NCBI GenBank assembly: GCA_018903255.1
Contig: JAHIQT010000160.1
Location: forward strand, 1 to 32,856
Origin: Bacillota bacterium
GTDB taxonomy: Bacteria; Bacillota; Clostridia; Eubacteriales; Eubacteriaceae
DNA: 32,856 nucleotides
Direction of reading: 5' to 3'
A program made the translations under genes and the position numbers. Of this stretch, positions 5,972 to 32,603 are shown one piece after another; position 1 is the stretch's first letter, and each line of letters starts with the position of its first letter. Below the pieces are notes generated by a model, which did no database searches, had not been told where the DNA came from, and worked only from the letters and a program-made list of their open reading frames with translations.

Positions 5972-6022
5972 TTCTGGAAATAATGGAGTGAAAACGATGA
6001 AATTATTTCCAGAATTTTTTTA
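5972..6022 (+). terminator. terminator-like hairpin between acoB and acoX
   Basis: TTCTGGAAATAAT ... ATTATTTCCAGAA followed by TTTTTTT; 18-nt loop. Confidence 0.65.
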
Positions 6023-6043
6023 AGAGTTACAAGATGCCTGCCG

Positions 6044-6233
6044 TACCGACCAATTGTTAATCTATTGTTTGCTGCGCTACACGAAATCCGCTACGCTTAT
6101 TTCGTGTAAGTCGCGGGCAGTCGCCAACTACAAGCAAAGCTTGTGATTGGCTCGTTGCCTTCGCGCAGGATCGGACAGGTTTATCAACCTGTTCGCCCCG
6201 ATGCAAACAATATGATGTAACAATTGTCGGTAC
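6044..6233 (+). repeat. structured inverted-terminus repeat, copy 1 (190 bp)
   Basis: Starts GTACCGACCAATTGTTA, ends TAACAATTGTCGGTAC; internal hairpins; about 94% identical by eye to inverted copy at 10237-10426. Confidence 0.88.
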
Positions 6234-6288
6234 TACGTTATGGGCTAATTATTAATGCGTTTTAAAGACAGAAAAAGGTGGTGGACTT

Positions 6289-10062: not shown

Positions 10063-10236
10063 GTAGGACAGCAAAGAGAAGTTGATCACACTCAAAAAAG
10101 CGTGCGATTGACTTCTTTTCGCTTTTCTTGGAATTTTAAGGTTAATAACCGATACAGGAGGTATATACTTAAGTATAAAGATTTTACCTATTATATAAAT
10201 CAGCCCTGTGAAACGATTTGATTAACAGATAACGCA

Positions 10237-10426
10237 GTACCGACAATTGTTACATCATGTTGTTTGCATCGGGGCGAACAGGTCTTAGACCTGTACGATC
10301 CTGCGCGAAGGCAACGAGCCAATCACAAGCTTCGCTTGTAGTTGGCGACTGCCCGCGACTTACACGAAAGAAGCGTAGCGAATTTCGTGTAGCGCAGCAA
10401 ACAACAGATTAACAATTGGTCGGTAC
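10237..10426 (-). repeat. structured inverted-terminus repeat, copy 2 (190 bp), inverted relative to copy 1
   Basis: GTACCGACAATTGTTACATC...GATTAACAATTGGTCGGTAC; reverse complement aligns to 6044-6233 throughout. Confidence 0.88.
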
Positions 10427-10496
10427 GGAAGATTAGTGACACTGTTAGGCTGCACGCTTCGTAATAGGTTTAAATCACGAAAGGATTTGTGAATCA

Positions 10497-19772: not shown

Positions 19773-20621
19773 TTACCTCTTAATCAAAATGATATTATCA
19801 ATCAGCCGGGTGTTCCCGAAGCGAACCGCTACCGCCGCCAGAGCCGGCGAGGTGATGGTTTCGATGTCTGCCAGGGTTTCAAAATCAAGGATATCAACGT
19901 AATCAATAGCAGCCAGTGGCATGGTGGTAATCTGGTTAATAATCGCAGCTTTTATGATTTTGACCGAGCGTTCACCAGATCCATAAAGGGCTTTGGCGGA
20001 AGCCAGCGACTGGCTGAGAACCAGAGCCTGGTCTCGGGCCGCTAGATTCAGAAACACATTCCGGGAACTCAGGGCCAAACCATCGGCTTCCCGGACAATC
20101 GGGCAGACTATAATCTCAACAGACATATGCAAATCCCGGATCATTTTTTTAATCACCGCCACCTGTTGGGCATCTTTCTGGCCAAAATAGGCTCTAGTTG
20201 GCTGGATCAGATTGAACAACAGGTTGATCACTGTGGTCACGCCTTTAAAATGAGTGGGTCGGGACTGGCCGCAGAGTTTTTTGGTGATGTCGCCTTCCAC
20301 TTCCACAAAGGTTGAGGCACCCGTCGGGTAGATTTCGGCCGGATCAGGAAAGAACAGCAGATCGGTTCCAGCAGCTTCGGCAAGTTGTGAATCCCGGTCA
20401 AAATCCCGGGGGTAGGCGTCCAGATCCTCACCCGGGGCAAATTGGGTGGGATTAACAAAGATACTCACGACGGTCACATCATTTTGACTTTGTGCTTCAT
20501 TAATTAATGCAAGATGACCATCGTGGAGATAGCCCATAGTCGGGACAAAGCCAATGGTTTTATCCCGACCAAAGTCTTCAAGACAGCTCTTTAGTTCCGC
20601 TATGGTTTTGGCAATCTTCAT
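19773..20621 (-). CDS. panC: pantothenate synthetase
   Basis: GFVPTMGYLHDGHLALINEA, VVSIFVNPTQFAPGEDLDAYPRD; start at MKIAKTIAEL, overlapping panB end. Confidence 0.93.
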   Translation of the reverse strand: MKIAKTIAELKSCLEDFGRDKTIGFVPTMGYLHDGHLALINEAQSQNDVTVVSIFVNPTQFAPGEDLDAYPRDFDRDSQLAEAAGTDLLFFPDPAEIYPTGASTFVEVEGDITKKLCGQSRPTHFKGVTTVINLLFNLIQPTRAYFGQKDAQQVAVIKKMIRDLHMSVEIIVCPIVREADGLALSSRNVFLNLAARDQALVLSQSLASAKALYGSGERSVKIIKAAIINQITTMPLAAIDYVDILDFETLADIETITSPALAAVAVRFGNTRLIDNIILIKR

Positions 20622-20625
20622 GGTC

Positions 20626-21462
20626 TTATTGCTGCAATTCGGCAATAACCGCATCATCAATGGTGAAGGTATGCTTTTCTTCCGGGAACTGCGCAGTCTT
20701 TACCTCGGAGACATAGGCCGTGACAGAATCCTTAATGGTCTCATTCAGCGCCGCATAACGCTTGGAAAACTTGGGCGATTGACCAGAGTACATGCCCAGC
20801 AGATCATGAATGACCAGCACCTGACCGTCGCAGTAGCGACCGGCACCGATACCGATGGTGGGTACGGATAATTTTTGCGTAATCAGAGTTGCCAGTTTTT
20901 CAGGAATCCCTTCCAGGACAATAGCAAAGACTCCCGCCGCTTCCAGCGCCAGGGCATCATCAATGACTTTCTGGGCCTGAGCAGTGTCTTTACCCTGAAC
21001 CTTAAATCCACCGAACAGGTTAACCGACTGGGGCGTCAGACCGATATGCCCCATGACGGGAATCTGAGCCTTGACAATGGCTTTGACATTGGCAACCTGA
21101 TCCACGCCGCCTTCAAGCTTGACAGCATGGGCCTTACCTTCCTGAATCAACCGGCCGGCATTGCGAACAGCGTCTGCCACCGAAATATGATAGGATAAAA
21201 AGGGCATGTCGCCGACGATCAGGGCGTTTTCGGCGCCCCGGGCGACGGCTTTACAATGGTAAACCATATCGTCCATAGTCACTTCCAGGGTGGATTCATA
21301 GCCCTGGACAACCATCCCCAGAGAATCGCCCACCAGAATCGCATCGATGCCGGCATCGTTGACGATTTTGGCCATTGAATAATCATACGCCGTTAGCATG
21401 GTGATTTTTTCCTTGTTTGCTTTGGCTTGTAAAAAAGAACTGACAGTAAATTTACTTTTCAT
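20626..21462 (-). CDS. panB: 3-methyl-2-oxobutanoate hydroxymethyltransferase
   Basis: [47 protein letters not shown]. Confidence 0.94.
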
Positions 21463-21482
21463 TCGTTTCTTCCTTTATTTTT

Positions 21483-22340
21483 TTATTTTAGTTGATTTTT
21501 TAAATGATCATAGGTTTCTGCATCAATCCGTTTGTCTTTGATCATCTCAATGGTGGCTAAGCCCATGGTCTGGTAGAGTGCCAGGAATTCCGGGGCTTGG
21601 GTTTTTAAGGCTTCGATGTGTTTACTGATGGTGTTTTCATCTCCCCGAACCAGGGGGCCGGTGAGGGCGTTTACCGTTCCTGATCTTTCGATGTTACTCA
21701 GGGTGGCGGAGATCAGCGGCATAAATGCCCGGACGATTTCATCTGTGGCAATTCCGGTGCTTTTAAGTAGCTCAAAACCCGAATCAATCAGAGTCACCAG
21801 ATAATTGGAGAGGATACAGGCAGCGGCGTGGTAAAGCACCTTATCACCCTTGTCGATCACGGAATAGGGATTGCCGGTGATCTGAAGGATTCTTTGTACC
21901 TCGGCCAGCCCCTTTTCATTGCCTTCGAGGGTAAAAACCGTTTGCTTTAAGTTTTGAGCGGCAGTGAAGGGATCAGAAAAACTCATGATCGGGTGAAGCG
22001 AACACAAACCACACCCTGAAGTTAAAAGCGGATCAAAAAGATCGGTGGACAGAGCGCCGCTGGTATGGACAAGAGTATGTTGCTCGGTTAAGCAGGAGGT
22101 TTGGACGAGTTGATTGATAACCGCAGAAATCTGATCATCCCCGGTGGTGATAAAAATCACTTCACTTGCGGTAACAAGGCTGGGAAGGTCGCTAAAAATT
22201 GTGGCGTCAGTTGCGTCAGCAGCGCCTTGAGAAGAGGTTTCACTACGGCTTAGGTAACCTGATAGGGTCAGACTATTTTGTTTGAAAAAAATGCCCATGG
22301 CGGTGCCGACTTTGCCGGCGCCAATAAATCCGATTTTCAT
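21483..22340 (-). CDS. panG: Rossmann-fold / DUF2520 protein, candidate ketopantoate reductase (PanG-like)
   Basis: MKIGFIGAGKVGTAMGIFFKQN and LCSLHPIMSFSDP; directly upstream of panBCD on the same strand. Confidence 0.6.
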   Translation of the reverse strand: MKIGFIGAGKVGTAMGIFFKQNSLTLSGYLSRSETSSQGAADATDATIFSDLPSLVTASEVIFITTGDDQISAVINQLVQTSCLTEQHTLVHTSGALSTDLFDPLLTSGCGLCSLHPIMSFSDPFTAAQNLKQTVFTLEGNEKGLAEVQRILQITGNPYSVIDKGDKVLYHAAACILSNYLVTLIDSGFELLKSTGIATDEIVRAFMPLISATLSNIERSGTVNALTGPLVRGDENTISKHIEALKTQAPEFLALYQTMGLATIEMIKDKRIDAETYDHLKNQLK

Positions 22341-22721
22341 GCATTTACACCTGTTAGTAGTATTTGGTTATGACCGCAAAGAGCAGCGAAACACATGGCA
22401 CGCAAACCTGTGGCTGTTGAAAATCTGGTTGTCGGTACTCTGTTCGACAAAACTGGATGGCAGTAGTTTAAATTTGCGCAAAGAAAAAAGGTCCTCTGCA
22501 CTGAAAATAAACAACTGCAAAAAGACCTATCATGACATTATAAAAATGCAAAACAGTAAGGTTTTATTCAGTCTCTATCACCAGGGATTAGAGCAGATTT
22601 TTATATTCTTATAAAAGTTTTTGTGCGTTAATCATGTGCAGCTCTTAACGATGCCACCATGTGGGTATGATACAACATGCCGAATTATAATGCAAGCGTT
22701 TATTTTGAGGTTTTAATTTTA

Positions 22722-32377: not shown

Positions 32378-32421
32378 TAAAGAAAACACCGGAAGGTGTT
32401 TGAGGTTGGAGACAGACTACC

Positions 32422-32552
32422 GTACCGACCAATTGTTAATCTGTTGTATGCGCGCAATTCGTACAGTTGCATTTACAGTTCGAAAAAGAACGAACGTTTC
32501 CTTGCAACTGTTCGTCTTGAGGCATACAACATGATATAACAATTGTCGGTAC
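32422..32552 (+). repeat. structured inverted-terminus repeat, copy 3 (131 bp, divergent core)
   Basis: GTACCGACCAATTGTTAATCTGTTGTATGC ... GCATACAACATGATATAACAATTGTCGGTAC; core differs from copies 1 and 2. Confidence 0.85.
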
Positions 32553-32574
32553 TACCAATCTTTTTTTGACAGTT

Positions 32575-32603
32575 TAAAGAAAACACCGAAAGGTGTTTTT
32601 TTT
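32575..32603 (+). terminator. terminator hairpin with near-duplicate at 32378-32401
   Basis: AAACACC-GAA-AGGTGTTTTTTTTT; TAAAGAAAACACCGGAAGGTGTTT on the other side of repeat copy 3. Confidence 0.7.

Follow-up and report, generated by a model that had tools for sequence, protein, structure and literature searches.

A family of Acetobacterium MITEs with IS1182-type ends and duplicated terminator stem-loops at their insertion sites

Structure-directed insertion has been described for IS1272, a member of the IS1182 family that inserts into stem-loops and removes them (PMC5678879, PMC4923244). Alongside this replacement, a hypothetical pathway b was drawn in which the 3′ ends of the IS join the 5′ feet of cruciform stem-loops, thereby duplicating the whole stem-loop (PMC5678879). 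Among small repeats, the pneumococcal SPRITE resembles terminators (PMC10969869). The repeat described here belongs to a genuine family of mobile elements, MITEs with IS1182-type ends whose target duplication and fate after insertion are both unusual.

The starting point was the window, a stretch of 32,856 nucleotides that forms contig C114 of its own genome (G000; 83% complete, 2.9 Mb). The original prediction placed three copies of a folded repeat there, and all three were recovered as GTACC...GGTAC at 6043-6233 (+), 10237-10426 (−) and 32422-32552 (+). Each forms a long and almost perfect hairpin. The basal stem, given as about 25-30 bp, measures 29-30 bp with conserved one-base bulges, and the compensatory stem changes quoted between the three copies are correct. 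Copies 1 and 2 have a 92-bp internal module in common; copy 3 has the same basal stem and an unrelated interior. The parts of the three copies are as follows.

6018 to 6023, + strand: copy 1, left target duplication TTTTAA (sequence and empty-site comparison)
6024 to 6259, + strand: copy 1, entire inserted element: core with its decayed end segments on both sides (comparison of eight empty sites)
6041 to 6234, + strand: copy 1, hairpin core (CCGTACC...GGTACT), long form (read, folded, BLAST matches)
6076 to 6167, + strand: copy 1, 92-bp internal module (relatives with the short form at this site lack it)
6260 to 6265, + strand: copy 1, right target duplication TTTTAA (sequence and empty-site comparison)
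10236 to 10428, − strand: copy 2, hairpin core, long form, reverse orientation (empty site L238; short form L239)
10302 to 10393, − strand: copy 2, 92-bp internal module (limits from alignment to copy 1)
32383 to 32401, + strand: copy 3, terminator stem-loop, left duplicate AAAACACCGGAAGGTGTTT
32402 to 32419, + strand: copy 3, left end segment gaggttggagacagacta
32420 to 32553, + strand: copy 3, hairpin core with a different interior (sequence, fold)
32554 to 32576, + strand: copy 3, right end segment accaatctttttttgacagttta, an IS1182-type end
32580 to 32598, + strand: copy 3, terminator stem-loop, right duplicate AAAACACCGAAAGGTGTTT, followed by a T-tract

Elsewhere in the window, the Rfam pan motif (RF01749) lies at 22565-22660 (−), near minus-strand ORFs (19773-22340) that resemble pantothenate genes, as judged by eye.

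Searches of the host genome and its relatives revealed a family far bigger than three copies. Copy 1 returned 62 BLAST matches in its own genome, where the 16-nt right arm TAACAATTGTCGGTAC gave 56 matches with up to 2 mismatches, compared with 2 for a reversed-pattern control. Public genomes hold at least 102 stretches with the element, and every carrier stretch with a shown origin is Acetobacterium or the MAG HGW-Firmicutes-4. Many Acetobacterium genomes carry dozens of copies each; the plasmid and phage records searched gave no match. We extracted 161 distinct candidates (45 from the window's own genome and 116 from others), 150 of them with a core of at least 95 bp. The commonest core spans 101-103 bp from CC to T (81 copies), and longer forms contain the 92-bp module, a copy-3-type apical hairpin, a 19-mer (TGACCWAGGGGTCAGACCC) placed in one arm or the other, or combinations of these. 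With its ends the element measures ∼140-270 bp; like a MITE, it is short, multicopy and devoid of transposase coding capacity.

Smaller repeats accompany the element. The 19-mer, a 19-bp double palindrome, occurs at 38 places in the window's own genome (e.g. G000:C29:24295-24313), both outside the element and in either arm of many copies, always as a clean insertion (e.g. between CAA and TTG). It is frequent in the window's lineage and rare in the other sampled genomes, and has the look of an independent, tiny repeat, mobile or REP-like. The internal module of long copies is also found free-standing, twice in tandem at G000:C29:31881-32037 and again at G000:C167:11501-11546 (L018, L030), and is thus a repeat in its own right nested in the MITE. 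One remnant (L265, G000:C101:27418-27436) consists of the left end, the first core bases, the 19-mer, a T-tract and a GACAA-like right end with no big hairpin, and is possibly a minimal or deleted copy. An integron attC site, suggested by an AATTGTT box, was rejected: the arms run the wrong way round, and the copies stand singly and in both orientations.

Intact copies are laid out as GAGGTTGTCGATAAACTA, then CC-hairpin-ACT, then GGGTTATCTTTTTTGACAGTCTG. Conservation reaches beyond the stem, ∼18 nt to its left and 23-25 nt to its right, and these outer segments, not the stem termini, are the real transposon ends. Many copies have degenerate ends, with right-end mismatch counts that look bimodal; such copies may represent an old burst or a second end type. 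At L285 (G017:C1, near 3366923) the right end GGACAACCTC is a mirror image of GAGGTTGTC, the left end, so a copy can carry the same type of end twice.

Just outside the ends, many copies lie between two near-identical stem-loops, and a T-tract usually follows the one on the right. A direct repeat abuts both ends in 21 of the 37 intact-end copies, where ∼0.4 would be expected from shuffled partners; the repeats counted lie above the 99th percentile of the shuffled-partner control, which covers the 37 intact-end copies, and the 21 are partly non-independent, as some sites are orthologous between genomes. Typical stem-loop pairs are AGAGCAACCGAGAAATTGGTTGCTCT with AGAGCAACTGAGAAATTGGTTGCTCT and ATAAGCGAGACTATCTCGCTTAT with ATAAGCGAGACCATCTCGCTTAT, and in three of the 21 the same 8-bp repeat, AAATAATT, takes the place of a full stem-loop. 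The two stem-loops at one site are usually non-identical. At L124 their loops, AAGCACCCGATGGGTGCTT and AAGCACCCATCGGGTGCTT, are reverse complements, as if one had been flipped.

Comparison of filled with empty sites establishes both the defined ends and the target duplication expected of a MITE. The site of copy 3 is empty in A. wieringae DSM 1911 (L171), which has one terminator (AAAACACCGAAAGGTGTTTTTTT) where the window has two around the element. Two further pairs, L165/L089 and L144/L019, likewise have one terminator when empty and two when filled. With three such sites, it follows that insertion duplicates the terminator stem-loop. Copies 1 and 2 are without duplication of a whole stem-loop. 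The copy 1 site is uninterrupted in eight relatives (L216, L217, L219, L221-L225), around ..TTTCCAGAA..TTTTTTAAAGACAG.., and is filled in G000, G004 and G016 with a TTTTAA duplication, L218 and L220 holding the short form. At the copy 2 site, G006 is empty with the palindrome CCTATTATTGTAATAGG, which the element splits in the filled genomes (G000, G013 and G002). Loss of the stem-loop with no target duplication, as for IS1272, is not what these sites show, since the stem-loop is duplicated; copy 2 may be a partial exception.

The surroundings of the element point the same way. Of the 134 copies flanked by genes on either side, the gap is convergent for 32, tandem for 96 and divergent for 6, compared with 70 divergent among 471 control gaps, all classes resting on simple ORF calling; three copies sit inside an ORF. 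This preference for gene ends fits a target made of terminator stem-loops. Duplications end at the stem foot in sites of unrelated sequence, which suggests that the target would be a folded hairpin when attacked. A MITE/REP-like element mobilised through folded DNA had been predicted. Its MITE-like nature holds and folded DNA does matter; the evidence for folding bears on the target, whose terminator stem-loops are duplicated, and not on excision of the element itself, and the ends lie beyond the stem termini.

Taken as a whole, the repeat is very probably a non-autonomous MITE with a hairpin core between IS1182-type ends, which inserts with duplication of a stem-loop and whose core interior is later exchanged. 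The proposed target is an intrinsic-terminator stem-loop or another short palindrome, probably in the form of an extruded or single-stranded hairpin. The 3′ ends of the element would join the two 5′ feet of the target stem-loop, and gap repair would then leave one complete stem-loop on either side, making insertions nearly harmless. These strand-level steps are carried over from the published IS1272 model and would hold by analogy; the footprint that pathway b predicts is the one the Acetobacterium elements carry. After insertion, the outer ends decay and the hairpin core remains conserved. Its interior is replaced at the same site, for which gene conversion between dispersed copies would be the simplest route.

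The conserved core invites another reading. Compared with dinucleotide shuffles, copy 1 folds with z = −10.0 as RNA and −9.0 as DNA, and copy 3 with z = −9.1 as DNA. The predicted covariation persists in a larger alignment of 74 distinct short copies: pairing holds in 96.3% of cells, and changes on both sides affect 13 pairs (7.3 in shuffles) and 123 cells (41.3 in shuffles), counts drawn from copies that are related and whose interiors are exchanged in place. The signal disappears when the pairing partner is slid. In 60 decayed-end copies the ends show 58% mismatch and the 3′ arm 5%, so the core survives longer than the ends. Mismatch in the outermost bases of the right end has reached background level, and part of the core-adjacent T-tract is kept. 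The 3′ arm is perfect over 27 nt in 67 of 106 loci. The public-genome loci were found via the 5′ arm, whose conservation follows from that choice of data; the 3′ arm is free of this effect.

The excess of compensatory changes, together with the 3′ arm and partial T-tract that survive in decayed-end copies, would suit a host-functional structured RNA or DNA, for example a bidirectional 3′-end or RNA-stability element, spread by transposition and kept by selection on its fold. Interiors at shared sites are freely variable, however, and any one site is empty in many relatives. A uniform core would also result from concerted evolution, and the spacing of 9 nt between stem and T-tract is not that of a canonical intrinsic terminator. 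We regard such a host function as possible, and as the lesser explanation. The original prediction had taken the paired changes as a sign of selection on the fold; the changes are real across the 74 copies, but copies exchange interiors in place, so covariation alone is no proof of selection on RNA. A structured ncRNA, the other form that the prediction allowed, may still describe the hairpin; the window's copies have no Rfam match at gathering scores.

That interiors change under a fixed insertion is apparent from sites shared between genomes. Different internal forms occupy 19 of 25 such sites, the forms being classed by simple patterns and most differences being visible in core length. Thirteen of 20 differing pairs have linkers more alike than at least 98% of other pairs, several of them far from the consensus, and one of the 13 has linkers identical over 41 nt. 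These 13 pairs are most readily understood as single old insertions that acquired a different interior afterwards. Independent insertions into one terminator could also produce differing interiors, as insertion at the stem foot would bring separate events to one position, and 7 of the 20 pairs have no linker sharing beyond background. This we consider rather unlikely overall, given that the degenerate linkers of the other 13 are shared to a level reached by <2% of other pairs; for the 7 it may apply. For in-place exchange after a single insertion, gene conversion between dispersed copies would explain both the swaps and the uniform basal stem; other gain or loss of modules, or selection on the fold, may contribute instead. 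More tentatively, the core could be a maintained, exchangeable cassette: old insertions would lose their ends yet preserve the fold, take up other interiors from other copies (of the short, 92-bp-module, copy-3 or 19-mer type), and persist as dispersed, concertedly evolving gene-end elements seeded at terminators.

A transposase with matching ends had been suggested as a thing to look for, and it was found in part: the right end of the MITE occurs in IS1182 elements of the genus, and the left end differs. Transposases with PF13751 are present in 15 of 19 genomes of the genus. Three loci (L187, L189, L190) are IS elements of ∼1.5 kb with ends CAGACTGTCAAA..., one IS end (CAGACTGTCAAAAAAG) being identical to the MITE right end over ∼16 bp. 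The transposase of L190 is assigned to NCBIfam IS1182 (NF033551; 362 bits against a cut-off of 270) and also matches PF05598 and PF13751; the transposase genes of L187 and L189 are broken by stops as read. Duplicated stem-loops flank L190 and L189 as they do the MITE, L187 being less clear. The MITE left end GAGGTTGTCGATAAA fits a TGTC-centred pattern shared by the L190 type and two further IS1182 groups of Acetobacterium. An IS carrying both MITE ends, or the exact left end, was not found: a search with the left end GAGGTTGTCRATAAAD gave five matches, four of them ordinary MITE copies and the fifth (L286) a left end plus core start only. The window's own, incomplete genome yielded no intact L190-type IS. 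Other IS1182 groups in Acetobacterium end in different sequences, and no obvious stem-loop duplication is seen in those of their flanks that were inspected. The shared right end, target type and target duplication strongly suggest that an IS1182-family (DDE) transposase encoded elsewhere would mobilise the MITE in trans.

Two other accounts fare worse beside these IS elements. A REP-like element whose folded hairpin is the substrate of a Y1 (TnpA_REP) transposase would accord with the many extragenic hairpins and with six Y1_Tnp matches in the window's own genome, but is very improbable: the ends match a DDE element, the nested 19-mer and module patterns tested are not convincingly flanking Y1 genes, and Y1 transposition is, as general knowledge, not expected to duplicate its target, let alone a whole stem-loop. 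That the paired stem-loops are merely pre-existing tandem terminators, which do exist in bacteria and could account for the usual difference between the two copies at a site, can be set aside almost entirely, because the three empty sites with a single terminator contradict it there, the repeats directly adjoin the element ends with constant spacing, and the genus's autonomous IS elements are arranged alike.

In the papers found, structure-directed insertion by the IS1182 family is described only as stem-loop replacement by IS1272. Among literature represented for the most part by titles and abstracts, and as weak evidence, nothing was found on Acetobacterium MITEs or REPs, on an IS1182 MITE, or on whole-stem-loop duplication as a result from data. 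The family offers dozens of natural examples with empty sites, which makes the attack positions, and a need for an extruded or single-stranded target, directly testable in a cultivable genus. It also shows how insertion at gene ends can keep the terminator stem-loop, and how dispersed hairpins swap interiors at fixed sites.

REP/BIME sequences with TnpA_REP resemble the family in their many extragenic hairpins and differ in a Y1 chemistry generally held to leave no target duplication; the Y1 genes found are not convincingly accompanied by the nested modules. Bacterial MITEs, including the pneumococcal BOX, RUP and SPRITE, are likewise small, multicopy, extragenic, folded and nested, but their review, with which the family was compared by description, contains no IS1182 MITE and no terminator-duplicating target (PMC10969869). 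The genus's own L187, L189 and L190 share the right end and the flanking stem-loop duplication with the MITE; they are 1.5 kb long with a transposase, whereas the MITE has a different left end and, as far as read, an unrelated interior. Closest in target choice is IS1272/TnSha1, an IS1182-family insertion into stem-loops, often terminators, with no target sequence consensus (PMC5678879, PMC4923244). The Acetobacterium MITE differs in having no transposase gene and, above all, in its outcome: IS1272 replaces or partly deletes the stem-loop with no target duplication, whereas the Acetobacterium element duplicates the whole stem-loop.
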